A DNA stretch of 64,000 nt from a virus. The stretch lies in the IMG/VR virus record IMGVR_UViG_3300042463_000422, positions 1 through 64,000 of that record; one strand, written 5' to 3'. Position numbers and translations under genes: made by a program. How positions within the stretch are numbered: the first letter of the stretch is position 1; each line of letters starts with the position of its first letter. Positions 6,270-60,486 of the stretch are shown here, in pieces. The notes under the pieces are model-generated. The model was given only the letters and a program-made list of their open reading frames with translations, was not told where the DNA came from and made no database searches.

Positions 6270-6298
6270 GGTGTAATACACCCGATATCCCGAGTCAA
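6270..6298 (-). promoter_or_regulatory. Promoter/operator of the 6257-754 operon
   Basis: TTGACT (6293-6298), ten bases, then the palindrome GGTGTATTACACC (6270-6282) on the leftward strand, ending 12 bases before the ATG at 6257. The same layout recurs at seven other places in this window. The palindrome covers the -10 region at 17-base spacing, so a bound regulator should block or control initiation. Confidence 0.75.
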
Positions 6299-34228: not shown

Positions 34229-37200
34229 ATGAAGTTCGAGAGCCAACTGCAGATCGTCACGGCAGCGGGGGTTCCCCCGTTCACGGTCAATCAGACCGCG
34301 CTGGTGATCAACCTCAACGCCGACCTGTTGGACGGGCAGCACGGGTCGTACTACGCGGCGGCATCGTCGCTTGGTAACTACCTTCCGCTGACTGGTGGAA
34401 CACTCACCGGAACGCTGACTGGAACGGTTGGCATCTTCACAACGCTCAGAGCGACTGAGCTCACCAGCCTGCTCGGGTCGAATGGTCCGATCACGATCAC
34501 TCCTGACGGCACCGGACACGTCCACATCAACTCGACGGACATCCGTATTGGCACGAACAACACGAACGCCACGCTCGCAACTCGAGGCACTGGCGACCTG
34601 ATACTCAGAACCCACGAGGGTTCCGCGAACGAGGGTTTCATCCGAATCTACGATGGCGCGAACGGCAACATCGAGATCACCCCCAACGGAACCGGCACGG
34701 TTGTTGTTGGGAGGCTGTCAGGAAGCACCGCGTCGTTCAGTGGTGCGTTGTCGATAACTGGACTGGGCACGTTCGCCAACAGTGCTGGCAACAGCTACAA
34801 CGAGAATCTGAGGCTCCCTCGCGGCGGAAGCAGTTACGTCTCGGTTGCGCTTGCTTGCGACACTTCCGGGTCTGGAAGCATTGCTGGCCAGTTCAACCTC
34901 ATCGTCTACCCGACCACCGTCAATCAGGGGGCATTTGCGATTCGTGCCAACGGCACTGATGCGCTGACAATGACGACAGGGGGTGCCGTCAACATCCCGA
35001 CACTGTCTGGAACCACCGCCACATTCTCTGGCGTGGTAAGCGGAGCGAGCTTCAGTGGAGCAGGAACTGGCCTCACTGGCACCGCCGCGTCACTGAACAT
35101 TGGGGGCAACGCTGCGACTGCTACCTCGGCAGCACTGCTTGGTACAAACACTGGAACTAACCCCAGTTCACTCCAGTATTGGCAGTTGACAGGAAACTCA
35201 ACCCTCAACCCAAACACCAGCTATTGGTACGCATTACGAATGGGTCATGGTGATGCTGACACCTACTACTCAGCTACTATCGCGGTTGATTTCTTCAACG
35301 ACGACATTCAGTTCCGACGGAAGACAAACGGCACCAACCAAAGCTGGAGATCCCTTCTCCACGCAGGGAACTTCTCATCCTACGCTCTCCCGCTTACTGG
35401 CGGAACCATCACCGGACAGCTGTCCATCAACGGCTCAACAGCTTCAGACATCCTGCGGCTTTACATCACTGGATCAACCGTCTGGAAGCTCGGTGTAACC
35501 GACGCCAGCGGTAGCCTGTTCAACATCACGGCTGACTTCGGGAACTTCACGATCAACAAGAGCAACGGCAACGTCGCCACACCGGGAGCGTTCGTATCGA
35601 CTGTAGCCACTGGCACCGCTCCTCTGTCAGTCACGAGTACCACGGTCGTCAGCAACCTGAACTCCGACCTGCTCGATGGGCAGCACGGGTCATACTTCGA
35701 GGGCAGGGACACAACTGCCATCGGGTTCTCGGGCGGATCACTCACCCTGACACGAACTGCGGGCAATCTTAGTGTCAGCCTTGACGGGCGCTACCTGCCA
35801 CTCACTGGTGGTGTGCTTACAGGTGCGCTCACGGGCACGACTGCTGCATTCGGTGGCGACGTGTCGCTGAACGCTAAAGTCTCGTTCGGAAACCGTGCTG
35901 CGAGCTACAGCCTGTTTCATGGCGGCGCTCAAGATCTCGCGTGGAAGAAGATCGCGGACATCACGTTCGGCACCTCACTCTACTCGGGAGCGACATTCAA
36001 GGTTGAGGTCATCGACGCCAACACCAACTTCGGCGCGAACGCAGACTGCAAGCCGATGACGTTCTTTGTGTCGTGTCGTCGGAGCGGTGGTGTGCTGAAC
36101 GATCTCGATAGCGCACTTGTGTTCGGCCCGGTCGCGGACTACGTGCGGGCGGTAAAGACGGCAACAGGAGTGTACGAGCTTCAGATCCGGCAGATAGCCG
36201 ACTGGATGGTACACACCTTCATCGTCGAGGTCATTAGCCAAGGGGCTGGCACGGTCACTTACGTCACTGGAACACCTCCGAACGGATCTACCACTGGAAC
36301 CATCTATCTGCCAACCACAGGTGGCTACACTCAGCGGTTCACGAATCTTGCTGTCACTGGTGCTACTACGTTTGGAGGTGTCGCTGCGTTTAGTGCTGCC
36401 TCTGGAACGTACATCAACACAGGCGGAGGAAATGATGCGTTCGGTTACAACGCCACGGCAGGCCTAGGTCACTACATCAAGGGCACCGGAAACACATACA
36501 TCTACGGCGGTGGCGCTTTCTTCGATGGAAGCACGACGCGCACGTTGTTGCATGCAGGCAACTTCAACTCCTACGCCCTCCCGCTGACGGGCGGCGCAAT
36601 GACAGGAAGCTCGACGATCAGTGGCGACAACCACATGACGTTCGGGCCAAACTCTACGTGGAGTAACTCGATCCGAATCGGTGGAAATGGGTACACAGCC
36701 ACTGGGACGCAGATGGCTTCCGTTGCAACGACCAACGGAAACCTGCACCTCGATTCAGCGAAGCTAACGGCGAGAGGTATTTACCTTAATTGGTACGGTG
36801 GAGATGCTGGAACGTATTTCGGAAACGGGTCCAGTGGTCAGGTTGGCCGTGTTGATGGGTCTGGAAATGCGTCGTTCATTGGCACTGTCACATCTAACTA
36901 CGGCACATTTTCCGCACCCGGATTGATCGTTGGTGACGCTCAGTACGGTCTGTACGCATCTGCTGGAAGCCTCTTCTACAAGAGCGCGTCCACGGGGAAT
37001 CACGTCTGGCGCAACATCGCCAACTCGGCGAACACGATGACGCTGGACAACAGCGGCAACCTCACGATTACCGGCACACTGACCGAGGGTGGATACCTCG
37101 CGTTCCCTGAGCGCGTCTACACGATCAACCTGAACGCGCAGTCAGCTGCGAACTTCTACCCGATCGTCATCAACGGGAGCCCCGGCAATGATCCGTGGCA

Positions 37201-40200
37201 TCATCGGTTCTCTCTTGAGATGCCATCACTGGGTGGTGCGTCGGCGTACAACATGGACCACATCCATGGTGAGGCTCGTGGTCAGGGGTGGTCCGACCAG
37301 ACCGGCTTCTACCGCATCTTCCACAACTGCTACGAAAACAACGAGCGTTCTGTTCTTGGCTTGTGGAGAGGGACTCAGGATTGGTACGGCATCGTTCTCT
37401 ACGTCCGAGGTGGGCAGACCTACTACGTGCGGACCACCTCGCGCTCTGTGGCAGGCTTCACCGCTGCAACCACTCAGGGTAATGCGACGTTCGCGATTAA
37501 GAATGCTGCTGGCGCTGACGTGTCTGGAACGTCTACCGCGATCGGGGAGCTCTTCAACCTGATCAATACGCCTCAGGGGTTCCACAGCAGCTACAACAAT
37601 TACATCGGCGGCACGCAGGTCGTCACGAACACGGGCACTTGGGGTATCAGCATTAGCGGCACCGCTGCGACTGCAACCACTGCCAATGGCCTGAACGCGG
37701 CCAACAACTATCAGGTCAACTCGATCGGCGTCGGAATAGCCGCGAGCGGAACGGCTGGATCCATCGGCTTAAATCAGGCGGGCACTCGGTCTTGGTCGAT
37801 TACCCCAAGCGGAGGAAACCTCAACTTCGCCTCAGGGGATGGAAGTGGTGCTGCAAACTTCTCTGTTGCACTGCAACAAGGAGGCCAACAAGTCCTACAC
37901 GCTGGCAACTACACTTCCTACGCGGCTGGTCTCGGGACGTACAACGTGTTGACCAACGTCAACCAGTTCCGGTCAAACATCGGAAACGGTTTTTACCTCG
38001 GTACGGCTAACAATCCTCCACTACAAGCATTCTCTAGCGACGGAGGTGCGGCGTTCATGTCGTTCCATCGATCCGGTTTCTACGCTGTCAACATGGGTCT
38101 GGACCCAGACAACGTCCTGCGAATCGGCGGATGGTCTGCTGCTGCCAATCGGTGGCAGCTAGACATGTCCGGCAACGAGACCATCGCCGGAAGCCTGACT
38201 GCTGTTGGTGGAATCTTTAGTGGCCCAATCACTCAAGGCCCCTACTCGCGCAGACAGATCGACTTCACGTCGCCCGCTGCCAACTTTGGAAATTTCAAAC
38301 AGTTCCTACGTTTGTGGGCAGCGAGCGGAAGTGGCTCAAATCTGTTTACGCTGCGAGTGTCTGTTAGATCTACTTGGAACTGGGCAACCGCATACGGCGG
38401 GATCGAAGCGGTGTACTCATTGTACATTCCGGGAGACGGAAGCATAAGCTCGATTCGAGATTTCAGAATCACTCATGTGTCCGGGCCTGCAACAGACACC
38501 ATGCGTCTTGGGGATGCGGTGATTGAAAACGGCTTCGTCTCGATCCCGGTCTGGTGCGCTAACACGAACCCGATTTGCGCCACCGTTGAGCAGTGGAACG
38601 GGACCGCAATCCTAGGAACCACAACCGCCGCTGTCTCCGAGGCGCTTCCAGCGTTCATTGCGCCCAGCTTCCGTGGAGGTCTCACCTCTAACGGTCCAAC
38701 GACCATCACCGACTCGAACAGCGGCGTGTTGTTGTCGGCCGCAAACGACGCACGGTTCTACATTCGCTCGGGCACTGCTGGTGCTTGGCTCGACATCCGC
38801 TCAGAGACGAACGGGTACGCTGCAGTGAACCTGTATGGCGGCGGTGCGACCACAGGCCGTTGGTCGGCAGGCATGACCGGCGGCAACTCGAACTACCGAA
38901 TCACGTCTGGTGCCCAAGGCGCTGGCACCGTGCTGCTGGAGATCAACGGTTCGACAAACGTCTCCAACTTCCCGAACGCGCTTCAGCAGGGTGGAAACCC
39001 GGTCCTCTCTGAGGCTGTCGTCACGTTCACTCCGACAGCCGTCGGCTGGTATCGCATTGCTATAGCTGGCGGCATTTCATCTGGAACGATCAGGATTACT
39101 GGCGTCTACGACAATCGCTCTGCAGCGATGGAGTTCGACTACACCGTCAACGGGTGGAATCAGAATTGCAGTATCAACGTCAGGAACGTAAATAACTATG
39201 TTGGATCACTGATTACGCAGATTCGTGCGAGCAACGATGTCAGCACTGCGAACGGTTATCTCGACATCTACATTGCTACCGCGACCACTCCAGCTCCGCT
39301 GACGATTTACAACTTCGGACCATCCAGAGCAGGTCTTGTTGCATCGCCAGTTGTCGGCGCGGTCGTTGGAACAAACGTAGTCAGGATCGCCACCGTCATT
39401 AACGCCATGGGGTTTGTCACAACAGGTGTGCTCAATGGCGACACGCTTGGTATCGCTGGAAACGGGACTGTTGGAGGGACTCTGTCCGTCACAGGTGCCA
39501 TCACCCAAGGCGGTAACCAAGTCCTGCATGCTGGAAATGTGTCCACCTACGCGCTCCCCATCAGTGGCGGCACACTGACGGGTGCAGTCAGTTTCCTTGG
39601 CACAGTCTACAACAACGTCGGGGGTGCAAGGTTCTTCGCAGGAAGTGGCGGATTCAACTACCTGTACACGAACACCAGTGGCATGGTTTGGAGGAACCAA
39701 GCCGACAGCGCAACGGTCGCCACACTGACGGACGCAGGGGCTTTCAACGCTGCGGGTGCCATCACCCAAGCAGGCAACCAAGTTGTCCACGCCGGAAACG
39801 TTTCGACGTACACGATCCCGTACCTTTCGGCAGTTGCAGAAGCGAGCCTAGACACGGCCACTGGAACTGGGTTGCGAGTCATAAACAAGACTGGCTACAG
39901 CAGCACGCTGCTCACGCTCAACGTCGCAGGATCGACAGGTCCATTCCAACTGGACGCCAATTACACCGGAGTCCTCAGGTGGCGCAACCAAACCGACAGC
40001 ACGACGTGGACGGCTTGGAAGACGCTGATCCACGACGCAAACGTCTCCTCCTACGCACTCCCGATCTCCGGCGGCACACTGACTGGAAATCTGGCTCTCA
40101 ACACAGGGGTCATTTTCAATCGCGGCTCTGCTCCGAGCATCACCAACATCCAGTGCTCGATCTTCAACGAGCTCAACGGAATCGCGAGTTCAGAGTCGTT

Positions 40201-42181
40201 GAACTTCAGGGCGTACGGTGGATTCAAATGGCAGTACTGGGATGGATCTGCGACGTGGATGCAGTTGACCTCTGCAGGCCTGTCGATCACGGGAACACTG
40301 AACGCCACTGGAGCCATCACACAAGGCGGCAATCAAGTCCTGCACGCAGGCAACTACACCGGGTACTTCAATAACTTCGTTCAGGGCGCGGGTTCGAGAG
40401 GTCGCTCAAGCGGCCGCACAAACGGTAGCGCAAACAACCTGACCGATCCATCTGGGTTCTACTTCGGAAACACTGTGACAGGAATGCCGTCCACGGACTG
40501 GTGGAACTGGCTGAACTGCATCGGCAACGACTGGTCCTCCCCGGACGGCTATGGCTACCAGTTGGCCTACTCGTTCTGGAGTGACGACATCAGGATGCGT
40601 CGGCTGACTTCTGGAACTTGGAATAGCTGGGTGTCGTTGATTCACAGCGGCAACTACACCAACTATCCGCCTGCACGCTGGGCCACCGGCCGAACAATCG
40701 CCCTGACCGGAGATGTCACCGGAACCAGCGGTTTGTTCGACGGCACGGCCAATCTCTCGTTTGCTGCGACGATCGCAAACTCATCGGTAACCTACGCAAA
40801 GATCCAGAACGTCGCGGTGTCGAGCGTTCTTGGGAACAGCAGCGCATCAGTGGCTCAGGCTCCGCAGGCGCTCTCGATGGCCACACTGGCTGGCATGCTT
40901 AGCGGGCAGACGATGAACATCGTTGGAAGCTCAACCAGCGTGTCGGCAGCGGCGGATCAGGCGATCGTCAATCAGCACAACGGAAGCGGCTCAGCATGGT
41001 ACGGACGCATTCTCTCCAAGAACTCGACCAACGATAGGTCGGCGTTCCTTGGGACATACGGAAGCGTTGCGGGCGTCTTCGCTCACAACAACGCCTTAAC
41101 CGCATGGGCTGACCTTTACATCAACACGGTGGATGGAAGCACTGGCGGCACCGTCCGAATGCCGTCATCCGTTCTGATCAACGGCAATCAGGCGCTCCAC
41201 GCTGGAACAACAAGTGCCCCGAGTTTGAGTATTGGTGGCAATGCCGCGACAGCAACCAATCTCAGCACCAACAGAACCAACTGGTCCACGAATGGTGTGA
41301 TCTCAGCTGTGGTCGGTCAGTTGGCTTGGAAGCACTACAACAACAACCACACGATCTTCGACGCTTCCAACTCTACGTCCCCAGCCGGAGGCGCGATCAG
41401 CAACACCAACGCGCAGGTCGCTTGGTCTTCAACCTACCCGACCCTGATGGGTTGGAATGGAGTCAACACGTATGGCGTTCGAGTGGACTCGGCTAGGGTT
41501 GCTGATTCCTGCTCCGGTTCTGCGGCGCAGCTGAACGGTCAGGCCGCAAGCTACTACGAGAACCGCGACATCACTGCGGTCGGATTCGCGTCAGGAACAC
41601 TGACTCTCACTCGCGCTGCGGGGAATCTCTCCGTCAGCCTCGACGGACGATACCTGACTGGAAACCAGACGATCTCACTGACGGGGGCTGTAACAGGATC
41701 TGGCACCACGTCCATCGCGACTACGCTCGCGAACTCGACTGTCACCTACGCGAAGATTCAGAACGTGGGCGCGTCAAGCGTGCTGGGTAACAGTAGCGCG
41801 TCTGTCTCGCAAGCTCCGCAGGAGATCACGTTCGCCAACCTGAACAACCTCCTGTCTGGTGCAGCCAAGGCGTGGGTCACGTTCAACGAGAACCCGACCA
41901 CCGGAGCGATCACGATCAACGCCAGCTTCAACGTCTCCAGTATAACGCGCATCAACTACGGGCAGTATCGGGTCAACTTCTCAACAGCGTTTGGCGATGC
42001 CAACTATGCTATTTCTGGAACTATTGGATTTGAGTCGAACGGAGGATACCTCTACGGCGGATTTCTAAACGTAGCCCGTAGTGCAACCCCGAAAACCACC
42101 ACCTACTGTGAGGTCACCGCCAGTTACGGCGACGGCAACACATACAACGCACGCTATGTCCACGTCGTTATCGACCGATAA
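34229..42181 (+). CDS. Giant tail fibre protein (2650 aa)
   Basis: One continuous 7.95-kb frame. It contains about ten copies of an LHAGNYTSYALPLTGG-like motif (near 35,360, 36,560, 37,905, 39,525, 39,790, 40,030, 40,340, 40,640 and 41,205 bases) and two copies of a block with QHGSY/ASYYENRD...SLDGRYL. The N-terminus begins MKFESQLQIVTAAGVPP. Repeats and size suggest a long trimeric fibre with several receptor-binding modules; some C-terminal regions may be intramolecular chaperones. Very few Cys. Confidence 0.85.
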   Translation: MKFESQLQIVTAAGVPPFTVNQTALVINLNADLLDGQHGSYYAAASSLGNYLPLTGGTLTGTLTGTVGIFTTLRATELTSLLGSNGPITITPDGTGHVHINSTDIRIGTNNTNATLATRGTGDLILRTHEGSANEGFIRIYDGANGNIEITPNGTGTVVVGRLSGSTASFSGALSITGLGTFANSAGNSYNENLRLPRGGSSYVSVALACDTSGSGSIAGQFNLIVYPTTVNQGAFAIRANGTDALTMTTGGAVNIPTLSGTTATFSGVVSGASFSGAGTGLTGTAASLNIGGNAATATSAALLGTNTGTNPSSLQYWQLTGNSTLNPNTSYWYALRMGHGDADTYYSATIAVDFFNDDIQFRRKTNGTNQSWRSLLHAGNFSSYALPLTGGTITGQLSINGSTASDILRLYITGSTVWKLGVTDASGSLFNITADFGNFTINKSNGNVATPGAFVSTVATGTAPLSVTSTTVVSNLNSDLLDGQHGSYFEGRDTTAIGFSGGSLTLTRTAGNLSVSLDGRYLPLTGGVLTGALTGTTAAFGGDVSLNAKVSFGNRAASYSLFHGGAQDLAWKKIADITFGTSLYSGATFKVEVIDANTNFGANADCKPMTFFVSCRRSGGVLNDLDSALVFGPVADYVRAVKTATGVYELQIRQIADWMVHTFIVEVISQGAGTVTYVTGTPPNGSTTGTIYLPTTGGYTQRFTNLAVTGATTFGGVAAFSAASGTYINTGGGNDAFGYNATAGLGHYIKGTGNTYIYGGGAFFDGSTTRTLLHAGNFNSYALPLTGGAMTGSSTISGDNHMTFGPNSTWSNSIRIGGNGYTATGTQMASVATTNGNLHLDSAKLTARGIYLNWYGGDAGTYFGNGSSGQVGRVDGSGNASFIGTVTSNYGTFSAPGLIVGDAQYGLYASAGSLFYKSASTGNHVWRNIANSANTMTLDNSGNLTITGTLTEGGYLAFPERVYTINLNAQSAANFYPIVINGSPGNDPWHHRFSLEMPSLGGASAYNMDHIHGEARGQGWSDQTGFYRIFHNCYENNERSVLGLWRGTQDWYGIVLYVRGGQTYYVRTTSRSVAGFTAATTQGNATFAIKNAAGADVSGTSTAIGELFNLINTPQGFHSSYNNYIGGTQVVTNTGTWGISISGTAATATTANGLNAANNYQVNSIGVGIAASGTAGSIGLNQAGTRSWSITPSGGNLNFASGDGSGAANFSVALQQGGQQVLHAGNYTSYAAGLGTYNVLTNVNQFRSNIGNGFYLGTANNPPLQAFSSDGGAAFMSFHRSGFYAVNMGLDPDNVLRIGGWSAAANRWQLDMSGNETIAGSLTAVGGIFSGPITQGPYSRRQIDFTSPAANFGNFKQFLRLWAASGSGSNLFTLRVSVRSTWNWATAYGGIEAVYSLYIPGDGSISSIRDFRITHVSGPATDTMRLGDAVIENGFVSIPVWCANTNPICATVEQWNGTAILGTTTAAVSEALPAFIAPSFRGGLTSNGPTTITDSNSGVLLSAANDARFYIRSGTAGAWLDIRSETNGYAAVNLYGGGATTGRWSAGMTGGNSNYRITSGAQGAGTVLLEINGSTNVSNFPNALQQGGNPVLSEAVVTFTPTAVGWYRIAIAGGISSGTIRITGVYDNRSAAMEFDYTVNGWNQNCSINVRNVNNYVGSLITQIRASNDVSTANGYLDIYIATATTPAPLTIYNFGPSRAGLVASPVVGAVVGTNVVRIATVINAMGFVTTGVLNGDTLGIAGNGTVGGTLSVTGAITQGGNQVLHAGNVSTYALPISGGTLTGAVSFLGTVYNNVGGARFFAGSGGFNYLYTNTSGMVWRNQADSATVATLTDAGAFNAAGAITQAGNQVVHAGNVSTYTIPYLSAVAEASLDTATGTGLRVINKTGYSSTLLTLNVAGSTGPFQLDANYTGVLRWRNQTDSTTWTAWKTLIHDANVSSYALPISGGTLTGNLALNTGVIFNRGSAPSITNIQCSIFNELNGIASSESLNFRAYGGFKWQYWDGSATWMQLTSAGLSITGTLNATGAITQGGNQVLHAGNYTGYFNNFVQGAGSRGRSSGRTNGSANNLTDPSGFYFGNTVTGMPSTDWWNWLNCIGNDWSSPDGYGYQLAYSFWSDDIRMRRLTSGTWNSWVSLIHSGNYTNYPPARWATGRTIALTGDVTGTSGLFDGTANLSFAATIANSSVTYAKIQNVAVSSVLGNSSASVAQAPQALSMATLAGMLSGQTMNIVGSSTSVSAAADQAIVNQHNGSGSAWYGRILSKNSTNDRSAFLGTYGSVAGVFAHNNALTAWADLYINTVDGSTGGTVRMPSSVLINGNQALHAGTTSAPSLSIGGNAATATNLSTNRTNWSTNGVISAVVGQLAWKHYNNNHTIFDASNSTSPAGGAISNTNAQVAWSSTYPTLMGWNGVNTYGVRVDSARVADSCSGSAAQLNGQAASYYENRDITAVGFASGTLTLTRAAGNLSVSLDGRYLTGNQTISLTGAVTGSGTTSIATTLANSTVTYAKIQNVGASSVLGNSSASVSQAPQEITFANLNNLLSGAAKAWVTFNENPTTGAITINASFNVSSITRINYGQYRVNFSTAFGDANYAISGTIGFESNGGYLYGGFLNVARSATPKTTTYCEVTASYGDGNTYNARYVHVVIDR

Positions 42182-48818: not shown

Positions 48819-51800
48819 ATGCCCAAGATCATTGCAGTTGAAGGACAGGGAAACCTTCAGTTTGGCGACGATTGGTCCGACGAGCAGATCGATCAGTACA
48901 TCGAAGACAAGTACTTCGGTGGCCAGTCGTCTGCACAGTCGCAAGCGATACCAGCTGCAGAGAAGCAGGGTGTGTGGGACTCGTTCACCAGCGGTTTCGG
49001 CCGCGGATTCGAGGCTGGCGGCATTCCGTTCTACAGCGGTGGTAAGGAGGCGGTGAAGTCGGTCGGTGTGCTGAGTGCGGCGCTCGCTGCTCGGGAAGGC
49101 ACAGCATCTGACGAGCAGATGCAGAGGCTGCGTGAGTACAAGGCCGAGGAGGACAAGGCTGCTGCCGAGGCTGAAGGACGTGGATCGCTCGAGCGGATTG
49201 CATACGGTGTCGGCCGAGTTCTCGGTGAGGCCCCTGGCTTCGCTGGTGAACTGGCTCTGACCGGTGGTATTGCCACCGCTGGTGAGAAGGCCGCAGTCAA
49301 GGCTGCTGCAACTGCCGTCAAGGCGCTTGGCAAGGAGACCGCCTACACAGCAACCCGCAAAGCTGCAGACTGGGCTGCCGACAAGGTCAGTGGTCGGATC
49401 GTTCGCGGTGCTGCAGGCGCTGCTGCTCAGACCATCCCGTCTGGTGCGGCTCGCATTGTGTCTGGAACTGCTGAGCGGATGACTCCCGGATTCGAGCTCG
49501 AGGAGGCTCCCGGTGGAACCTACTTCACCGAGACCAAGCAGGCTGACCCGTTCGTTACTGCAGCCTACAAGGCGCTCGGAGATCAGTTCATTGAGGTGCT
49601 GAGTGAGCGGTCTGGTGGGTTCCTCACCGACATGCTCGGTACCGGTGCCCGCAAGGCTGGTCTCGGCAGCACAATCGACTGGGCCTCTGGCCTCAAAAAG
49701 GCAGTGGCAGGTCGAGTGGCTCAGAAGTACCCCGGGATGTTTGAGGGCAATAACTTCATCGATGCCATCGGCAAAACCACCAAGTGGGACGGCGTCTTCG
49801 GTGAGATGCTTGAGGAGCGTGCCGGTGAAGTTGGACGAGCCGCTCTTGGTGTGCAGGATTACCAAGCTCCGTCGATGGAGCAGCTGGCCACCGAGGCTCT
49901 TGGCTTCGGTTTGATCGATGCTGGTTTCAATGGCGCTCGATTGGCTGCGGCCCTGAGCAAGAAGAACCTGTCCAAGGATCAACGCGCACGGACACAGCAG
50001 GCTCTCGATGCGGTCACTGCTGCTGAGATAATCACTCCGCAAACCGATCTTGTTGAGAATCAAGAGCCCATTTCTGGCGATGTTGCAGGTAGCACTGTAG
50101 CAATAACTCCTTCCGGTCGAATCATCAGAACCAACAGCGCCAAGCGCCGCGCTGAGCTAGAGGCAGGGCTTTTTCTCCAGCAAGATAGCGGGCAGGTTAT
50201 TGACGATCAGGAGGTGGCCGATGAGCAGCGTGTTGGACAGTACCCTCCCGAGGGTTTTGGAACTGGCGTCATTCCTTCTGCGGAAGAGCAGCAGCGTCGA
50301 GCCGCTGTTCGAGCTCGTGTCGCAAGTAGGAACCGAGAAGCAGCAAACGCCGCACGCTTGCAGGCCATGGCCGCAGAAGAGCAGGCGCAGCGTGAGGCTG
50401 ATGCCGCTGCCGCTGTGCCTCAGAGCAGAGAGTCCGCTGCTGACCAGTTAAACGCTGTCACGTCGCTGCTGGCTGATCAGGAGGCGCTCGTCAACCAGCC
50501 TCAGTCCCGGTTCGGCCCAGGTGCTCGCGGCGAGGTTCCCCAGACCATCCGCGACGCCGGTACGGACGTGATGGCAAAGCTCCGAGCACTCCAACAGCGT
50601 GACCGCGAATTAAACGCCCAGATCGAAGCCGAGATTGCTGCACGCGCTGAGGCTAAGCGTCTTGCTGCCGAGAAGGCTGCACAAGAGCAAGCCGCTCGTG
50701 AGCAAGCTGCGGCCCAAGCCCGTGCTGCCGCCGAGAAGGCTGCTCAAGAGAAGGCTGCCGCTGAGGCTGCTGCCGCTAACACCCCGACTTCCCCGCCGAC
50801 TGATATTTCGCTACCGGTGGGAACCGGGGCTGCTCCTGTGGGTGGTGTCCCAGTTGCAGCCCCGGTCGTTGCCTCCAATGGTACACAAATCCAAGCGCCT
50901 CCAGCGGCGGCTGTGGCCACGGTCCAGCCCGCCAAAACCGAAACGCCTAGTGGGCCAGCAGGTTCGCAAACAACCCAAGCCCAAAACCAGCTAACGCCTC
51001 CTGCATCTAGGGTTGCAGAAGTAAACGCGGAGGTGATCAGCGCAAAGCCGGATCACTATTACCGCTCCATTCAGACCCCAGAGGATCTTGATGGAACGCG
51101 CCACATGGATCTTGGGCGTATCTGGCCAGACACGTTCGTGATCGAAATGAGCCCTGAGCAGAAGGCTACAAATACAGGGGCTAACGACACGTTCCGTGGA
51201 AAGGTAAACCCCAACAACGTCACTCGGATTATCTACGATAATCGCTCCTACAGTGAATACCCTGCAGACTACGTTCAGGCTCTTCGCAGTCGATTCCCTA
51301 ATGCAGAGTTCGTTGACGCCGTTCTAAATGACAAGGAAGACGGTTACGTTGTTCTCCGCAAAACCCCATCGATCAATGCCAATCAAGTCCAAGGACCAGT
51401 AGCCGCGCCCAAGTACAGTGATGGCACCGAGGTTAAGGCTGGCGACACCATTCGCTGGCGCACCGCTGCCGGTAAGAACGAGGTGCTTGGCACCATCGAC
51501 TCCATCAAGGACGGGGTGCCGCAGGTTCGCGTCACGCAGCTGTCCAAGAAGGCTCCGAACACCCAGAAGATCGGCAACATCGAGCTCAGTGGTGTGTACC
51601 CGGTGATCAACTCCAACCTGCTCGAGAAGCGTGAGCCGGTGAAGGAGGAGGAGAAGAAGAAGATCGGCCGCCCGTCGAAGATCACCCAGACCGACGACGA
51701 GAATGTGGCAGCGATCTTGGAGGAGGGTGTGAACCATCCCATGTGGCCCAGGTTCTCTGAGCTCATGAGGGGCGCTCTCAATGAGAACGAGGCTGACGAG

Positions 51801-54800
51801 GAGGCGTTGGATGCTCTTCGTGAGCAGGTTGGCACACGGGCGTCCGTGGCCATGGAGGCCGCGTTCAACCAGCAGACTGCATTCGACTTCATCGATGGCC
51901 AGCAAAGTGTAGTCAACGTCGAGATAGACGATGTATTAACAAACTACGATCGCGGCCTGAAGAAGTGGGTGCTCAAGAACATCGACAGTAAATCGCCTGT
52001 TGGGTTCTCACCCAAGAAGAACTTGGTCATCGCGGTTCGCAACTCCCGCAAGAAGTCGCTCGTCGAGAAGAAAACAACCGCGATGAGCTCGTCCGTCAAC
52101 GAAGACGGCGAGGAGAGCTCACCGATCGAGCAGTTTGCTCAGCCTGTTAATAAAGAGAGTGCTGCTTCGCTGGCGTCCATCTTCAGGAATGTCGAGGCGC
52201 TTGCTGATGCCGTGGTCTCTGCAATCCAGAAGGCCGAGGCTGCTGTGCGTGGGCGTCAGCTGACCCCTGATGAGTTCACCAAGGCTGTCGTCAGTGGATT
52301 CAAATCACTGATTCCAAACGCCCCTGCAAACGTAGCCGCAACTCTTGAGAGTATCGGTCTCACTGCATCTGGAAACCTTCAAGACATCTACGACGAGAAG
52401 GGTATCGATGGCGTTGATAATGCCATCGCTGAAGGTGAAGCCCTCCTAGCCAACGCTGCCGCTCAGGACACTGGCAACCAGTCTCTCCAGCAGGGCGAGA
52501 TAACCCTGGCCGACGCAATCAACACCGTGCTTGCTGGCAACACTGCTAGTAGCTGGATGCGCGGCATCGCTGAGAAGCTACTCAAGGCCAAGCTCCGTGC
52601 CCGTGTGGTTGTGCTGTCCGACGCTGAGTTCGATCGCATCGCCCCGCGCCCCGGACAGGCCGCGTTCTACGACTCCAACCCTCAGTCCGACACGATCTAC
52701 ATCCGCCAGTCTGCTGCGTCGCACGACTACTTGGTCATGCACGAGGCGGTCCACGCGGCCACGGTGTACGCGCTGCGGACCAACGTGAGCTTCCGTAACG
52801 AGGTTCGCCGGTTGCGCGACGCTGCCGTCAACGCTCTTGGAGCGAACAGCTTCTACGGCCTGCAGGAGCACGGCTCCAACTTCAACAACCTGGCCGAGTT
52901 CGTCGGCGAGTCGATGTCCAGCCAGGAGTTCCGCGATGCGCTGAACGGTGTGGTCGACAAGGATGGTCAGTCGCTGTGGACCAAGTTCCTCAACCTGATC
53001 GGCCGCCTGTTCGGGTTCAAGGGTGAGCAGAAGACCCTGCTCGATCAGATCGTCAACCTGAGCACCGAGCAGTTCGCGCCTAACATCGCCATCAGCGAGG
53101 GTGATCAGGGTGTTGGTGAGCTCATGTCTGCACCGCAGATTGAGAGCGCCGAGCAGCTGAACGATCTAACATCTGTACCCGGACTCAACGCGGCGAACAT
53201 CGCTGCGATCGAGAACCTGGCGGCGACGCAGGCCCAGATGGTTCCGGGTTCAATCGTTTCCCAGATTGCAACGCTTCCTACCACGGTGCGTCGTAGCTTG
53301 AATTGGCTTGTTGAGCAGGCTGCTGCATCTCCATCACCTAAAGCCCTGTCCTCGATGCCAACCGTTACCGAGGAGGATGTGCAGGCCAAGCATGAGGCGG
53401 CGCACGCTGTCGACAAGCTGGCTCGAGATGTTGAGAACGAACGCAGCAAGGTGCTCGAAAGCCTTGAAGAGCAACGGAATCAGTACGCCGCTTTGATCAA
53501 CGGCCTGAAGGCTAACCTTGCATCGGCCAACGCTGAAGTGGCTGCAACCACTGGTGTCGTTGACAACCTTGTCGAAGACTACAAGGACTACGTTGAAGAC
53601 GTGAAGTCGGTCAGCGGTGTGTTGAGCATGGCTCAAAAAACAGCCATCGAGAAAGAGGCTGAGATTGTGCGCCGCACGCACAAGGAGTCCGACCAGATGC
53701 GCAAGGCGATCTCGGCGATTGCTGAAGGTGTCACTGACGCTGAGCTCAACAACGCTCAGACCAACGACGACATCGTCAACATCATCGCCACTCGCAAGAT
53801 GTTGGACGGAAAGGTTCTACCCGAGACGATCAACACGCTCTTCACTGTTGGCTCATCAGGCAAGACCCCGCTTCAGTCCATGCGCCGGTTGATCCCCGCG
53901 TTGAAGATGATCAAGAAGATCAACTCCAACATCGCCGGGGTAAGGGCTTCAGTCGATGCGTTCGAGAAGGCTGTGTCTGGAATGACCGGCAACAAGCAGC
54001 GCAAGGTGAACCCTCGCGCATTCGCTCGCCTCTATCGCCGAGTCCTCCAGAAACAGTCTAAAGCCATTGAGGAGGCGCGGCTGCTTGATAACACCATCAA
54101 CCGGATGGAGCGCAAGATTCTCCGGTTGGTTCAGGAGCTCGACGTTTACGACAACTTGGTCGCGTCGCCTGAGTTCTCATCTCAGTACGAGGAGGCGATC
54201 CGAAACCTGAACATTCTATCCAGCAACGCTGGAGATTATGGTGGCGCAGAGGGTGCCAAGAGCGACCGCAAGGTTACCTACAAAATTGGATCTCAACTGT
54301 ACACCATTGAGTACAGCGCAGACCCAGTAACCAACGCGAACAACAACGCTGTTGTGATGAGCGCGCTTACTGCGATTGAGGCAGAGCTTAAGAAGCCGCT
54401 GAGCCCGATCGATCGCTACAAGCTGAAGTGGATGCGCACCAAGCTGACGTTGTTCTCAAATCCGATGGGGGACGCCGCTCTTGCGATCAACAGTTTCGAC
54501 ATCATCAACCGGCTGCGTGTTGCAATCCCGATCCTCACGCCGCTGATCGATCGCGCTTACGTCTTATCTTTGATGCCGGGCACTGTCGGCAAGGAGCTCC
54601 GAATCCTGCTCAAGGTTTCCATGTCGGTTGCGTCTGGTATTGAGGCGGCCCGCATGAATCCGCGGTACGGTGAGTACGCGATCAACCTTGCCGTCGACAA
54701 CGCTATCAAGAGCCATCCCGGTCTCGACGCTCGCACTTGGGACAAGGAGGTTCTGAACGAGTTCCTCGGCAGCAATCAGGAGCGCACCGGTCGCAACCTC

Positions 54801-57800
54801 AAGGTTGGCGACACCACCGCATTCGGCCACGTCATCACCAAGGAGGATGTGAAAGCGGCTGAGCTTCAGGCCCGGTTCGCTGACGCGATCTATAAGGCGG
54901 CTCGCGGTTCTGAGAGCGGCGGCATCGCCATGTACTATCCGACTCTGGTTCAGGAGTCGTTCATTCAGAATGGCGAGAAGCGCACCCGATACCGTTACGC
55001 TTATGCGGGCGGCGCGTTCACGACCCCGATGATTCTGGATCGAAGCGAGCTTCCCGGAAGCGTGCTCGACATGGCGAAGCAGTGGTACAATTACGGTACT
55101 AGCCCATCAACAGCCTACTCCAACCGACTCGCGCTTCTGCAGGGTCGCAAGTGGTTGGTCAACTTCGCACTCAAGCACGTCATGGAGACAAGCCCTCTCT
55201 ACAAGAGGAAGTCTCCGTACGCGAAGATCTATCAATCCCTCGCCGATCGCTATGCGTCTACAGGCAAGCTGCCCGGAACCCTAGATGATCTGGTCAATGA
55301 CATCGACGCGATGACTCCGGCTCTCGGAGACGAGGTTGCGCGCAAGGCTGAGATAACCCAGCGACTGGTCGAAGAGATCAATCAGTTCGTTGAATCGTAC
55401 CTGACTCAGGTTCAGGGTTCTGATCGCGATGAAGAGACTGCTGCTCTGAAGACCGATGCGCTGTCGGCCAACTCTTTTAACTCGATCATCAGCGGGTCAA
55501 ATAACTTCACCAAGCCTCGTGGTGAAATGGTTGCTCCGTCCAACTTCTACAACTTCACACTGTCGAGCGATAGCGCCAAGGGTGTGATCGCGCACTCGGC
55601 CATGATGCCGATTCGCATGCGCCAGTTGACGCTGATGGGAGATGCCAAGAAGGCGTTCGAGGTTGAGCTCGCAAAGATCAACGATGAGATCAAGAACCGA
55701 AAGGGGTCAGCAGGATATCTTAATCGCGAATGGACTGAGCCGAAGCGGAACGTGCTCTCTGGTAAAGCGTATCTGAATCAAGGCCAGTTGATTGATCTCG
55801 TTACGATGATCAACAACAGCCTCGATGTTCTTAAGCAGACGCTTGAGAAGCCTGCTGTTGGACGCCTTCAGACCACCGTTATCGAGGATATGCTGCAAGT
55901 TCGCCGAGTGATGCTGGTTGCTCAGCTGACATCGGCGATTATGAACTTCACTCAGGCCGTGACCGCGGGGCAGTTCACTCCGAGCATCTATCTTCAGGGC
56001 TACAAGCCGAAGAGCCTGGTCAAACAGAGCCTGCTGCAGATTGTCAGAGGCGCTTGGGATACCGCTGCCGCGCTGTCTTCCGAGAACAAGGCGGTGTCTG
56101 GATGGCTCAAGGCCAACAAGTCCAAGTCCATGTTCCTGATGCGCAAGTTCGCTGAGCGCACCGAGGAGTTCCAGAAGATGCAGGCTCGTTCCAATTTCGA
56201 GGGATTCGCTGCTCCCAGATTGGGTGTGTTTGAACGTGCTAGGATCATTCGACAACTCGGAGGGTATGGATCTCAAGTTGAGGGTTTTGCTGACTCCAAG
56301 GGCTCCACGTCGCAGGCGCTTGAGAGCGTCTTCTCGAAGTGGTTTCTTCCGCACGTTGTGCTGGCAGTTCAGAACATCCCGGCATCGGTTGATCGAGTGG
56401 CAAACATGATCAACCTCATGTCCATTCAGGACTCGCTGAATCTTGTGATGCGTTCCGGCACATCAATCATGGAGAAGCGAGCGGCGTCTGGCGCTGCCGG
56501 ATGGGACAACTGGTCTGACCCGAAGAACCTGATCAGCGAGGCTGAGGCCGAGGCCGCTGGTTGGCAGCGTGAGACTCTGGTCAACATGCGTCAGGCGTTC
56601 TCTGGGCTTGGTGGCTTGGAGCGCGTGCTGCACGACTACTGGTTGCGGGTGCAGGCTGCCAAGGTTGCAGGCACTAGCATCGATGACGTCCCACCGATTG
56701 CTGATGAGGGATTCAACCGCGACATATCACGCGAGCTTCTCGGCATGACCAATGCCGCGATGGAGGGCATGCGTCCTGAGGCTATTCAGGGCCGCACCGT
56801 GTTGGGTCGCATCTACAACTTCCTGTTCACGTTCTCCAGCTGGGTGAACCGATACTTCAGCACGCTTGGAAACCTGACTGCTGTTGACCCGAAGCGTGGC
56901 TACATCAATTTCGCTGCTTACTCAGCGGTCTCGATGGCGCTTCTTCTGACTGTGCTTGCCATCTCTGGGGCATGGAACAACGAGATCCGTGGGTTCTTCT
57001 ACGAATTCGTGAAGGGTCGGCCGTACGCAGTGACCCGCGTTGGTGATGTGCTCCGAGATACCACCCCCGGAAGCATTGCGAAGCTGGCAGCTGCGTCGAT
57101 TGGCTTGATGGTCCCCTACGCTGGCGAGTCGATAGCCAATCTGGTGGGCGGTCAGAACTACCGGAACTCTCCGACCGATATCGCCAGCTTCTCGCAGAGT
57201 GTGCAGCTGGCCAAGACGTTCTCATCCGCCATCGAGAGCGGCATGAAGACTGGTGACTGGACTGGAACACTGGTCAACACGTTGCGTCAGACGGTGCCAG
57301 GAACCGATGCTGTGCTTAACCGATTGCCGGGTGTGCGTGCTGCAGATGCATCGGCTGATGCAGGACGTGCCGCCCGTGTCGCTGCTGGCCCGCTGGAGCT
57401 CTCCGACAAGGGTGGGCAGGGTGGAACACCCACCAAGTTCAGCAACCTCGTCAGAAGGGCAGAGGCTGCCGCCGCTGGTGGCAACCTTGAGGAAGCCAGA
57501 AGCCTGCTTGAGCAAGCCGCTGAGGAGAAGAAGAAGACTGGAGGCACCGATCCGTACGGTGCTGTGAAGTCTGCGATCGCCGGCCGATCTGTTGATCGGA
57601 AGACGTTCGGCCGAAAGCTGACGGACGACGAGCGTGAGGGGCTGCTCTCTCGCATGAGCGATGGTCAGCGTGCTGCCTATCAGAAGGCGGAAGACGCCAA
57701 CAATGCACTTGCCGGCCTAGTTCCTGAATCGGGAAGCCGAGGCGAGTACGAGCGGGTTGGCGGAAAGCCGAAGACTGCGATCGATCGAATGAACACGAAG

Positions 57801-57980
57801 CTCAGGAAGATCCGCCGCTCCGCTACACCCAAGGCGTTGAGGGCGATCAACAAGAAGATCAAGTCCCTCAAGCCGAAGAAGCTGAAGATCTCGAAGCCGA
57901 AGAACGTGTCCGGCTCAAGGCTGCTGCGACCAAAAGCTCGGGGGGCGGGGGCTTCTGTGCTGCGCCCCGCCTCGATGTGA
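48819..57980 (+). CDS. Giant internal virion protein with metallopeptidase motif (3053 aa)
   Basis: N-terminus IIAVEGQGNLQFGDDWSDEQ, as in many phage 'polyvalent' proteins. Gly/Ala-rich, amphipathic region to ~300; long Ala/Lys/Glu coiled coil at ~600-655; zincin motif HEAVH at 1308-1312 with a possible third ligand E1360 in LAEFVGE; further helical regions at ~1480-1850; C-terminal part with a membrane-like helix (SAVSMALLLTVLAISGAW, ~2705). Giant multi-domain proteins at this place are injected with the DNA and may act on the cell envelope or host proteins. The peptidase and C-terminal similarity to LPD38-type regions are inferred. Confidence 0.75.
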   Translation: MPKIIAVEGQGNLQFGDDWSDEQIDQYIEDKYFGGQSSAQSQAIPAAEKQGVWDSFTSGFGRGFEAGGIPFYSGGKEAVKSVGVLSAALAAREGTASDEQMQRLREYKAEEDKAAAEAEGRGSLERIAYGVGRVLGEAPGFAGELALTGGIATAGEKAAVKAAATAVKALGKETAYTATRKAADWAADKVSGRIVRGAAGAAAQTIPSGAARIVSGTAERMTPGFELEEAPGGTYFTETKQADPFVTAAYKALGDQFIEVLSERSGGFLTDMLGTGARKAGLGSTIDWASGLKKAVAGRVAQKYPGMFEGNNFIDAIGKTTKWDGVFGEMLEERAGEVGRAALGVQDYQAPSMEQLATEALGFGLIDAGFNGARLAAALSKKNLSKDQRARTQQALDAVTAAEIITPQTDLVENQEPISGDVAGSTVAITPSGRIIRTNSAKRRAELEAGLFLQQDSGQVIDDQEVADEQRVGQYPPEGFGTGVIPSAEEQQRRAAVRARVASRNREAANAARLQAMAAEEQAQREADAAAAVPQSRESAADQLNAVTSLLADQEALVNQPQSRFGPGARGEVPQTIRDAGTDVMAKLRALQQRDRELNAQIEAEIAARAEAKRLAAEKAAQEQAAREQAAAQARAAAEKAAQEKAAAEAAAANTPTSPPTDISLPVGTGAAPVGGVPVAAPVVASNGTQIQAPPAAAVATVQPAKTETPSGPAGSQTTQAQNQLTPPASRVAEVNAEVISAKPDHYYRSIQTPEDLDGTRHMDLGRIWPDTFVIEMSPEQKATNTGANDTFRGKVNPNNVTRIIYDNRSYSEYPADYVQALRSRFPNAEFVDAVLNDKEDGYVVLRKTPSINANQVQGPVAAPKYSDGTEVKAGDTIRWRTAAGKNEVLGTIDSIKDGVPQVRVTQLSKKAPNTQKIGNIELSGVYPVINSNLLEKREPVKEEEKKKIGRPSKITQTDDENVAAILEEGVNHPMWPRFSELMRGALNENEADEEALDALREQVGTRASVAMEAAFNQQTAFDFIDGQQSVVNVEIDDVLTNYDRGLKKWVLKNIDSKSPVGFSPKKNLVIAVRNSRKKSLVEKKTTAMSSSVNEDGEESSPIEQFAQPVNKESAASLASIFRNVEALADAVVSAIQKAEAAVRGRQLTPDEFTKAVVSGFKSLIPNAPANVAATLESIGLTASGNLQDIYDEKGIDGVDNAIAEGEALLANAAAQDTGNQSLQQGEITLADAINTVLAGNTASSWMRGIAEKLLKAKLRARVVVLSDAEFDRIAPRPGQAAFYDSNPQSDTIYIRQSAASHDYLVMHEAVHAATVYALRTNVSFRNEVRRLRDAAVNALGANSFYGLQEHGSNFNNLAEFVGESMSSQEFRDALNGVVDKDGQSLWTKFLNLIGRLFGFKGEQKTLLDQIVNLSTEQFAPNIAISEGDQGVGELMSAPQIESAEQLNDLTSVPGLNAANIAAIENLAATQAQMVPGSIVSQIATLPTTVRRSLNWLVEQAAASPSPKALSSMPTVTEEDVQAKHEAAHAVDKLARDVENERSKVLESLEEQRNQYAALINGLKANLASANAEVAATTGVVDNLVEDYKDYVEDVKSVSGVLSMAQKTAIEKEAEIVRRTHKESDQMRKAISAIAEGVTDAELNNAQTNDDIVNIIATRKMLDGKVLPETINTLFTVGSSGKTPLQSMRRLIPALKMIKKINSNIAGVRASVDAFEKAVSGMTGNKQRKVNPRAFARLYRRVLQKQSKAIEEARLLDNTINRMERKILRLVQELDVYDNLVASPEFSSQYEEAIRNLNILSSNAGDYGGAEGAKSDRKVTYKIGSQLYTIEYSADPVTNANNNAVVMSALTAIEAELKKPLSPIDRYKLKWMRTKLTLFSNPMGDAALAINSFDIINRLRVAIPILTPLIDRAYVLSLMPGTVGKELRILLKVSMSVASGIEAARMNPRYGEYAINLAVDNAIKSHPGLDARTWDKEVLNEFLGSNQERTGRNLKVGDTTAFGHVITKEDVKAAELQARFADAIYKAARGSESGGIAMYYPTLVQESFIQNGEKRTRYRYAYAGGAFTTPMILDRSELPGSVLDMAKQWYNYGTSPSTAYSNRLALLQGRKWLVNFALKHVMETSPLYKRKSPYAKIYQSLADRYASTGKLPGTLDDLVNDIDAMTPALGDEVARKAEITQRLVEEINQFVESYLTQVQGSDRDEETAALKTDALSANSFNSIISGSNNFTKPRGEMVAPSNFYNFTLSSDSAKGVIAHSAMMPIRMRQLTLMGDAKKAFEVELAKINDEIKNRKGSAGYLNREWTEPKRNVLSGKAYLNQGQLIDLVTMINNSLDVLKQTLEKPAVGRLQTTVIEDMLQVRRVMLVAQLTSAIMNFTQAVTAGQFTPSIYLQGYKPKSLVKQSLLQIVRGAWDTAAALSSENKAVSGWLKANKSKSMFLMRKFAERTEEFQKMQARSNFEGFAAPRLGVFERARIIRQLGGYGSQVEGFADSKGSTSQALESVFSKWFLPHVVLAVQNIPASVDRVANMINLMSIQDSLNLVMRSGTSIMEKRAASGAAGWDNWSDPKNLISEAEAEAAGWQRETLVNMRQAFSGLGGLERVLHDYWLRVQAAKVAGTSIDDVPPIADEGFNRDISRELLGMTNAAMEGMRPEAIQGRTVLGRIYNFLFTFSSWVNRYFSTLGNLTAVDPKRGYINFAAYSAVSMALLLTVLAISGAWNNEIRGFFYEFVKGRPYAVTRVGDVLRDTTPGSIAKLAAASIGLMVPYAGESIANLVGGQNYRNSPTDIASFSQSVQLAKTFSSAIESGMKTGDWTGTLVNTLRQTVPGTDAVLNRLPGVRAADASADAGRAARVAAGPLELSDKGGQGGTPTKFSNLVRRAEAAAAGGNLEEARSLLEQAAEEKKKTGGTDPYGAVKSAIAGRSVDRKTFGRKLTDDEREGLLSRMSDGQRAAYQKAEDANNALAGLVPESGSRGEYERVGGKPKTAIDRMNTKLRKIRRSATPKALRAINKKIKSLKPKKLKISKPKNVSGSRLLRPKARGAGASVLRPASM

Positions 57981-58281
57981 ACGACAGGGGGCTGACGGTC
58001 TTCCGCGGGTCGAGAGACCTGCGGAGGAAGTATCGGTGACGCCAGAGGTTGCGGAGTGTGACGCCGCAGCCTCGCATGAATGCGTCAGCATCTCCGATGG
58101 AGACCTTGTCCCACGACTTCATCAGCGACAGGTCGCGCACCTTTTCATAGGAGAGTCCGCTACGCTTGGCGATGTCGTGATGTGTGAGGCGCTTGGCCCC
58201 TCGACCTTTACCCTCCCGCGCCAAGAGCCGGATGATCTGGGGAGGGAATGCACTGAGCATTTGGGAGATCGTGTCTTTCAT
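57868..58281 (-). CDS. HTH DNA-binding protein (137 aa)
   Basis: Residues 32-57 (LTHHDIAKRSGLSYEKVR and following) are a helix-turn-helix, followed by NLWRHRYFLRRS. The C-terminal ~37 residues are read from the strand opposite the end of the giant virion gene (113-base convergent overlap) and are low complexity, so only the first ~100 residues may matter. It is the last gene of the transcript starting at 58761 and is a regulator candidate. Confidence 0.55.
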   Translation of the reverse strand: MKDTISQMLSAFPPQIIRLLAREGKGRGAKRLTHHDIAKRSGLSYEKVRDLSLMKSWDKVSIGDADAFMRGCGVTLRNLWRHRYFLRRSLDPRKTVSPLSFTSRRGAAQKPPPPELLVAAALSRTRSSASRSSASSA

Positions 58282-58376
58282 CTGCAGCTGACTGTAAATG
58301 GATGACCCATCGGATTGAACGGCTGGATTTCAACAAGGTTCCAGTGAGTAGGTTTGCATCCACCCCACCGTCTCTC

Positions 58377-58433
58377 AGCCAAAGTACCCGAACCTCTGGA
58401 CCCTAGGCCCAGCGTGTCTTATGCCCGTCGGCT
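58377..58433 (-). other. tRNA-like folded element
   Basis: On the leftward strand AGCCGA (58433-58428) pairs with TTGGCT (58382-58377) with one G-U, and within it CTGGG...TCCAG forms a five-pair arm with a seven-base loop; both need G-U pairs that do not exist on the other strand. At 57 bases it is too short for a normal tRNA and lacks a T-arm. It may be a degraded tRNA or a separate small fold. The rest of 58282-58456 shows nothing. Confidence 0.25.
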
Positions 58434-58456
58434 TTCTCTACACCATGGATCAAAAT

Positions 58457-58531
58457 TGGTAGCGGGGGGTGGACTCGAACCACCGACCGTCTGCTTATGA
58501 GGCAGCCTAGCTACCACTGCTACACCCCGCC
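58457..58531 (-). tRNA. tRNA with CAU anticodon (Met or Ile2)
   Basis: A complete 75-base tRNA including an encoded CCA (58457-58459). Acceptor GGCGGGG/CCCCGCT with a G-U first pair, D-arm TAGC/GCTA, anticodon loop CTCATAA (CAT at 58499-58497), T-arm GGTGG-TTCGAGT-CCACC. The anticodon stem lacks the three G-C pairs of initiator tRNA, so it is an elongator Met tRNA or, if the C is modified to lysidine, an Ile tRNA for AUA. Confidence 0.9.
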
Positions 58532-58540
58532 ACGAAAGCA

Positions 58541-58628
58541 ACTGGGGCGCTCCGTTTTATGCGGTTACGGAGCAGGGATACCATGTGACCAGCGAACCAC
58601 CACCGCCGCAATCCCTGCTTGCCCCAGT
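58541..58628 (-). ncRNA. Compact three-way-junction RNA
   Basis: Closing stem 58621-58628/58541-58548 (8 perfect pairs), arm 1 58611-58616/58574-58579 (6 pairs, 31-base loop), arm 2 58567-58573/58549-58555 (7 pairs, 11-base loop). The two loops contain complementary pentamers (58606-58610 and 58560-58564), so a loop-loop interaction is possible. Nearly every base is paired or in a named loop; there is no open frame. It lies nine bases upstream of the tRNA in the same transcript. No known family is recognised. Confidence 0.6.
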
Positions 58629-58760: not shown

Positions 58761-58789
58761 GGTGTAGTACACCATGTGGGCGGTGTCAA
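58761..58789 (-). promoter_or_regulatory. Promoter/operator of the RNA-tRNA-HTH unit
   Basis: TTGACA (58784-58789), ten bases, then GGTGTACTACACC (58761-58773). It stands directly after the SSB stop. Between it and the three-way-junction RNA (58629-58760) a further imperfect stem (CTGCG-ATG with CATC-CGCAG, 58691-58735) is visible, but no gene. Confidence 0.7.
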
Positions 58790-59304: not shown

Positions 59305-60486
59305 CTAACTAAAGATGCTCACGTCCCTGATGTCAACGACCAGTCTGAACCCACAGGTGGGCTCGCCGCGTTCGTCGCATGGGATGGTGACTGCTCGCTT
59401 TCCTTCAGCGTTTACAAGGGTCTTCACGAACTGCACCGGCTCTCCGTCCGGCAGGTTGATCCGCCCCTTCTTCACGATGTAGATGCGCTCAGGTTTGAAC
59501 GTGAACGCGCTGGATTGGGAGACGCGCTGGCCGTTGGTGACCACTGTGATCTCCTGCATGTTGCCTGCTTTGACGCGAGCCTCGGACACGCCTTGTCTTA
59601 TGGCGTCGGTATCAACGTGAACGTACTGGGAGAAGATCCGCGGATCGAGGTGACCCGAGACCTTGGTTGCCAGAATGGTGCTCATGCCGCTGTTGGCCAG
59701 CATTGAGACGAATGAGTGGCGGAGGCTGTGGAACCGCTTGCTGCGATCGATGCCCGCCTTGTCTGCGATGTACCTGAATGCGTCACTGCCACTGCTGGCA
59801 ATGACGTGTCGGTCCATGTTGACCCTGCTGCCTGCTTGATCCGACACGAAGTCGGTTGGGCTGGCAGTGGGGGATTCAGCACGCAGGGCCTGCAACGCCC
59901 TGCCAAGCTCGTCTGTTGGGTTGAATGGTATGATCGACTCGGTTCCTGTCTTCACACGCCTGATGCGGATGAAGCATTTGTCCATGTCGATGTCACCCCA
60001 CCGCAGCATCATGCAGTCCGCGATGGACATGCCGGTGTTCCATCCAAGAAGTATGACCCAGTCCATCCAGTGGCCGGCCGCTGTGTGTCGCAGCTTGATG
60101 TACTCTTCGTGAGTGATGGCGTTGACGCTCCGCTCGTCGCGGATGGTTGGAGTTCGCACGGCGTGGTGCGGACTGGTATTTACTCGACCAGTGGTCTCAA
60201 GCCACCTCAGGAACCGACGCACCGAGTTCCAGTACTCCTGAGCAGTGCGCGGCTTGTGGTTCTCGAAGAGCCGGGTGCAGTAGGTCTGCAGGTTCTCCGA
60301 CGTGATGGTGTCGTGATGGCACGCCTTCATCCAAGATATCCACTTATTGATCCAAAGTTTCGAGAAGTGGATTGTAGCTGGGCGGCGACCCGGGAAGTCG
60401 CTGTTGTGATATGTCACAGCAAGATGCGCAAGCTGTGATGGGTTCATGTAGATCACATGTCCTTGGTACGTAGTTTCTGTGGTCAT
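59305..60486 (-). CDS. int: Tyrosine recombinase/integrase with altered active site
   Basis: 393 residues: N-terminal SAM-like domain (KLWINKWISWMKACHHD...) and C-terminal catalytic domain with K179, HSLRH (H253, R256), SGH (H279) and the nucleophile Y288 in SQYVHV. The first catalytic Arg, expected in TGLR-type sequence, is Ser154 (TGMSIADC). This may reduce or change activity, or another Arg may substitute. The nearby tRNA would be a natural attachment site, but no duplicated att core is visible. The start overlaps a 30-residue upstream gene. Confidence 0.85.
   Translation of the reverse strand: MTTETTYQGHVIYMNPSQLAHLAVTYHNSDFPGRRPATIHFSKLWINKWISWMKACHHDTITSENLQTYCTRLFENHKPRTAQEYWNSVRRFLRWLETTGRVNTSPHHAVRTPTIRDERSVNAITHEEYIKLRHTAAGHWMDWVILLGWNTGMSIADCMMLRWGDIDMDKCFIRIRRVKTGTESIIPFNPTDELGRALQALRAESPTASPTDFVSDQAGSRVNMDRHVIASSGSDAFRYIADKAGIDRSKRFHSLRHSFVSMLANSGMSTILATKVSGHLDPRIFSQYVHVDTDAIRQGVSEARVKAGNMQEITVVTNGQRVSQSSAFTFKPERIYIVKKGRINLPDGEPVQFVKTLVNAEGKRAVTIPCDERGEPTCGFRLVVDIRDVSIFS

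Follow-up and report, generated by a model that had tools for sequence, protein, structure and literature searches.

Organization of the locus

The window analyzed here is a stretch of 64,000 nucleotides that forms part of a 69,965-base IMG/VR virus record. The phage encodes a terminase large subunit, and no close named phage was found by means of the terminase or of an 819-aa protein. Elsewhere, the window holds an RNA ligase gene (8165-9142, minus strand; PF09414 with a PHA02142 OB-fold), possibly for RNA repair, and the genes of two giant proteins of 3053 aa (48819-57980, plus strand) and 2650 aa (34229-42181, plus strand). Relatives of the locus were traced through its neighboring single-stranded DNA-binding protein (SSB) gene, which led to four related phage contigs carrying RNA 1 and the tRNA described below, namely L002 (IMGVR 3300032214_000356), L003 (IMGVR 3300043448_000474), L004 (IMGVR 3300007171_000140) and L005 (IMGVR 3300042341_000289). 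The features of the locus, in the direction of the minus strand, are as follows:

59305-60486, tyrosine recombinase (Phage_integrase) gene, 0.7 kb upstream of RNA 1
58761-58789, minus strand, promoter-like site TTGACA-N17-TACACC overlapping the palindrome GGTGTACTACACC, conserved in L002-L005
58697-58721, minus strand, conserved leader hairpin GUGACAGUCGGGAAAGACCGGCAUC with a GUGACNGYYGGGARAGACC-like motif
58541-58628, minus strand, RNA 1, a three-way-junction RNA (covariance model R1, 80-115 bits in the window and L002-L005)
58457-58531, minus strand, tRNA-Met(CAU) with encoded CCA (ARAGORN; Rfam RF00005, 58.8 bits)
58291-58456, minus strand, RNA 2, a multibranched structured RNA of about 166 nt located 3' of the tRNA (covariance model R2)
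57868-58281, minus strand, downstream gene for a small HTH-like protein of 137 aa, conserved at 55-98% in 5 relatives

The order promoter, leader hairpin, RNA 1, tRNA and RNA 2 is fixed in the five phages, and AU-rich stretches (AUUUU, AUUUAC) lie ahead of RNA 1, RNA 2 and the downstream gene. L004 (~3475-4150) and L005 (~3466-4170) carry one more gene, located between the promoter and SSB, which the window, L002 and L003 lack. The promoter-like site at 58761-58789 was not picked by a generic sigma-70 scan. The palindrome GGTGTNNNACACC occurs in eight exact copies in the window (at 6270, 10656, 11099, 16794, 42993, 47722, 58761 and 62242), against approximately 0.06 expected, and several of them lie 10 bases after TTGAC(A/T); this arrangement suggests a putative phage-wide class of promoters/operators, the cassette's own among them. 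As the 137-aa downstream protein had no match in Pfam, its HTH-like character is read from its sequence, and it may be regarded as a candidate binder of the palindrome.

RNA 1 is conserved as a folded RNA

We then focused our attention on RNA 1, which an earlier note had described, with no strand given, as three perfect stems of 8, 6 and 7 pairs at a tight junction, with complementary pentamers in its two loops. The stems proved exact, and comparison with homologues assigned RNA 1 to the minus strand, where it has the following elements:

58621-58628 with 58541-58548, minus strand, P1, 8 bp, all Watson-Crick
58611-58616 with 58574-58579, minus strand, P2, 6 bp, all Watson-Crick
58567-58573 with 58549-58555, minus strand, P3, 7 bp, all Watson-Crick
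58601-58605 with 58590-58594, minus strand, P4, conserved hairpin CGGYG/CGCUG in the large P2 loop
58606-58610, minus strand, UGCGG, 5' half of the loop-loop (pseudoknot or kissing) pairing, complementary to CCGCA
58560-58564, minus strand, CCGCA in the P3 loop, 3' half of the same pairing, complementary to UGCGG

Read from 58628 to 58541, the sequence is ACUGGGGC AAGC AGGGAU UGCGG CGGUG GUGGUU CGCUG GUCACAUGGU AUCCCU GCUCCGU AACCGCAUAAA ACGGAGC GCCCCAGU, with P1 and P3 contiguous. The layout of two loops and three stems thus holds for the stems and the junction, but not for the supposed P2 loop, which contains P4. Further points of the earlier description also stood: no conserved reading frame crosses RNA 1, as the lengths of its homologues differ by 6 and 8 nt; the tRNA nine bases away is the tRNA-Met(CAU) on the same strand, at 9 nt; and a shared transcript is likely, because RNA 1 always stops 4 or 9 nt ahead of the same tRNA, on its strand.

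In an exhaustive scan of the window, RNA 1 was the sole perfect three-way junction with stems of 8, 6 and 7 bp, and the same layout was found 0 times in 20 dinucleotide-shuffled windows (1.28 Mb). Its folding energy was better than that of shuffled sequences on both the plus strand (-38.3, z -3.75) and the minus strand (-40.2, z -2.3). Minimum-energy folding did not recover the comparative fold in L003 and L004, so that the proposed structure is based on comparison and not on energy. In the minimum-energy fold of L004, the pentamer helix is nested and displaces P3; therefore, the pentamer pairing could be an alternative state instead of one formed together with P3, and it is possible that RNA 1 would switch between two folds.

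The comparison of homologues carries the case for the structure. In all five phages, RNA 1 immediately precedes the same tRNA on a shared strand, with 4-9 nt between its end and the tRNA 5' end, and the R1 model had no match beyond these five carriers in 39 related records. On the minus strand, 149 of the 152 pair cells (98%) are paired, as compared to 38-44% with the partner shifted 1-3 columns, and to 132/152 when RNA 1 is read on the plus strand, where G-U becomes C-A. The G-U pairs thus favor the minus strand, that of the tRNA, as the functional one. Two-sided changes were detected in 4 of the 31 pairs, with changes in P1 (G-C to A-U), P2 (G-C to U-G), P3 (C-G to A-U) and the loop-loop pairing (U-A to C-G, in L005), in an alignment of five sequences that was fitted to the model before counting. 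As three of the five members are near-identical, these changes represent perhaps 2-3 independent events, in effect 2-3 lineages. Moreover, L003 and L004 have one extra P3 pair, and the loop nucleotides that lie outside the stems (GGUUCGCUGGU, AACCGC) vary little or not at all. Of the checks proposed earlier, the covariance-model search, run on related phages, and the co-occurrence with the tRNA came out positively: the stems are retained together with the loop-loop pairing in L002-L005, and RNA 1 stands beside the same tRNA in each carrier.

Outside this group, candidates were rejected. L150 and L153, loose DNA pattern matches outside the phage group, are attributed to chance, as they lack the tRNA and matching surroundings and read as protein-coding; L217, the best of nine GTDB pattern matches, scored 21.7 bits, at chance level, over a protein-gene junction without a tRNA. 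A pattern that was too short matched 119 stretches, known relatives among them. A chance structure for RNA 1 itself is ruled out by the covariation counts together with the empty scan of shuffled windows. Judged by sequence comparison, a lineage of uncultured phages conserves RNA 1 as a genuine folded RNA.

One cassette of two structured RNAs and a tRNA

The earlier note had overlooked RNA 2, P4, the promoter/operator, and the joint presence or absence of three modules. In a whole-locus alignment of the five phages, RNA 2 is more conserved than RNA 1, and the R2 model gave 176-207 bits in the window and L002-L005 only. Its fold consists of a closing stem around several hairpins, with an A-U to G-C change and other compensating changes in the closing stem; altogether, 97.3% of its pair cells are paired and five pairs show two-sided changes. 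Support for RNA 2 is likewise comparative, as its folding energy was no better than that of shuffles (z -0.76). It ends approximately 10 nt before the start codon of the downstream gene.

The closest cellular relatives of the phage tRNA-Met(CAU), in a sample of 200 genomes, are initiator tRNAs, at 84% identity, and the initiator feature purine11-pyrimidine24 is present as A11-U24 in the tRNAs of the window and of L004. However, two initiator hallmarks are missing: the anticodon stem is GCUGC/GCAGA instead of containing three G-C pairs (GGG/CCC), and position 1 is not unpaired from 72, with a G1-U72 wobble instead. The tRNA is therefore best described as initiator-derived without these two hallmarks, and it may be an elongator, an altered initiator or a resistant substitute. 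In phage BLAST searches, the best matches fell on the tRNA, and the plasmid matches among those listed cover the tRNA part only.

More distant relatives were found through searches with the terminase and the downstream gene. The cassette is present in the five related phages and absent from five others at the same locus, L225-L229 (3300042924_004102, 3300025889_000004, 3300006802_000134, 3300047457_000875 and 3300005805_000084, respectively). These contigs retain SSB, the promoter (conserved as TTGACA with GGTGTTAAACACC), the palindrome, the leader hairpin and the downstream gene side by side, with the leader hairpin directly before the gene, but RNA 1, the tRNA and RNA 2 are jointly missing. 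As they are missing together in five relatives, the three modules act as a single cassette placed between leader hairpin and gene, of which RNA 1 is the first third.

Among the 4227 models of Rfam 15, the tRNA was the sole match at the gathering score, and over the region the tRNA was again the only one at E<=10, with the other rows at chance level; the statement that the layout was undescribed is in line with this absence from Rfam 15, and a literature search found no description of RNA 1. The phi29 pRNA is a phage RNA of approximately 100 nt that is built on a three-way junction and has complementary bases in its two loops; it binds the connector and the packaging ATPase, and its loops pair between molecules. 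RNA 1 shares the junction and the complementary loops, but it adjoins a tRNA and has the extra hairpin P4; the pRNA model (RF00044) had no match at E<=10, although the control genomes were silent with it too. Junctions of the purine riboswitch type combine three stems with loop-loop kissing, as does RNA 1, whose junction differs in having hardly any unpaired bases on two of its sides and which has no Rfam match at E<=10. The T4 RNAs C and D are small stable RNAs that are cut from the transcript of a phage tRNA cluster and have no known function. The cassette RNAs would resemble them in being small RNAs excised from a phage tRNA transcript, but no Rfam or sequence match to them was found. Finally, GOLLD and ROOL are structured RNAs of phages and prophages, located near tRNA genes and of unknown function (PMC12286853). 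In GOLLD, tRNAs can sit in the linker that joins a variable 5' domain to a conserved 3' domain, and chains join by kissing loops (PMC12286853). The cassette is likewise phage-encoded, with the tRNA between a less conserved 5' part and a conserved 3' part, and with complementary loops. Overall, the cassette is comparable to GOLLD/ROOL or to the T4 tRNA-cluster RNAs without being a member, and RNA 1 and RNA 2 are two families outside Rfam 15, of the known kind of phage structured RNA linked to a tRNA.

Possible roles of the cassette

The earlier note had suggested a partner in tRNA processing, a decoy for a defense nuclease or a regulatory RNA, all of them speculative roles. From the conservation, the paired changes, the strand and the all-or-none occurrence of the modules, we infer, with a probability of roughly 0.5, that a leftward non-coding transcript holding RNA 1, the initiator-derived tRNA-Met(CAU) and RNA 2 is cut at the tRNA ends, which would free a compact, stable phage RNA acting in trans with RNA 2. 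All three modules would be transcribed leftward from the promoter at 58761-58789. Maturation of a tRNA requires cleavage by RNase P at its 5' end; in the cassette, this cut would release RNA 1 with a 3' tail of 4-9 nt. An endonuclease such as RNase E would find suitable sites in the AU-rich stretches ahead of RNA 1 and of RNA 2, and its cuts, together with trimming at the encoded CCA, would free the remaining modules. Stacking of P1 on P3, with the third arm locked by the UGCGG/CCGCA pairing, could then yield a compact nuclease-resistant particle, so that RNA 1 would accumulate as a stable phage RNA of approximately 100 nt and work in trans together with RNA 2.

A possible, though less probable, explanation is that RNA 1, and perhaps RNA 2, work in cis within the precursor only and are then degraded, with roles in 5'-end protection, presentation of the tRNA to RNase P, shielding from misfolding, or control of the downstream gene. 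The positions fit such a leader: the cassette sits inside the leader of the downstream gene, the RNase P cut site follows RNA 1 at 4-9 nt, and about 10 nt separate the end of RNA 2 from the start codon. However, this gene also occurs in relatives that lack the cassette, and most tRNA genes do not need a leader of this kind; moreover, the near-invariant loop nucleotides outside the stems suggest that RNA 1 is more than a simple shield.

RNA 1 and RNA 2 could also belong to a single RNA, as its 5' and its 3' domain, with the tRNA in the linker between them; this RNA would assemble through intermolecular pentamer pairing as a small version of the homo-oligomeric GOLLD cage, whose layout, including kissing loops between chains, is similar (PMC12286853). 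We consider this improbable: a search of the full record with the GOLLD model (RF02032, 416 positions) gave nothing at E<=10 and no match appeared in the Rfam scans, the cassette measures approximately 350 nt including the tRNA (RNA 2 about 166 nt), as compared to GOLLD members of often >800 nt, and its modules are closed by separate stems, with no pairing between modules in the consensus fold.

Even less support can be given to a role in defense evasion, in which the altered initiator-type tRNA would replace a cleaved host tRNA and RNA 1 or RNA 2 would act as decoy or guard toward a nuclease that targets tRNAs. Defenses that cleave tRNAs can be evaded by means of phage tRNAs (PMC10264068), the tRNA of the cassette is unlike cellular initiators at its anticodon stem, its 1-72 pair and further positions, and an RNA ligase is encoded at 8165-9142; however, RNA 1 is unlike a tRNA anticodon arm. 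The weakest explanation is a DNA-level site, either a replication element or an attachment or recombination site for the tyrosine recombinase at 59305-60486: tRNA genes are common attachment sites and the recombinase gene lies 0.7 kb upstream, but the G-U pairs and the strand bias indicate RNA, and the attachment-site reading ranks low because a sister phage (L209) has an integrase-like gene of full length at the corresponding position and no cassette.

Returning to the release of RNA 1 as a stable RNA acting in trans, a bolder extension, which we put forward with considerable doubt, is that two independent structured RNAs flanking an altered initiator-type tRNA travel as one cassette and jointly act in trans on host translation or on tRNA-directed defense, as an undescribed class. 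Altogether, the analysis adds two families new to Rfam 15, RNA 1 and RNA 2, with alignments, covariance models and a contrast of presence and absence between sister phages. Structured RNAs beside phage tRNA genes have so far been studied on very large RNAs, e.g., GOLLD and ROOL; if RNA 1 and RNA 2 are stable in infected cells, they would offer a small, tractable case (~90 and 166 nt) for understanding why phages retain such RNAs at these sites.
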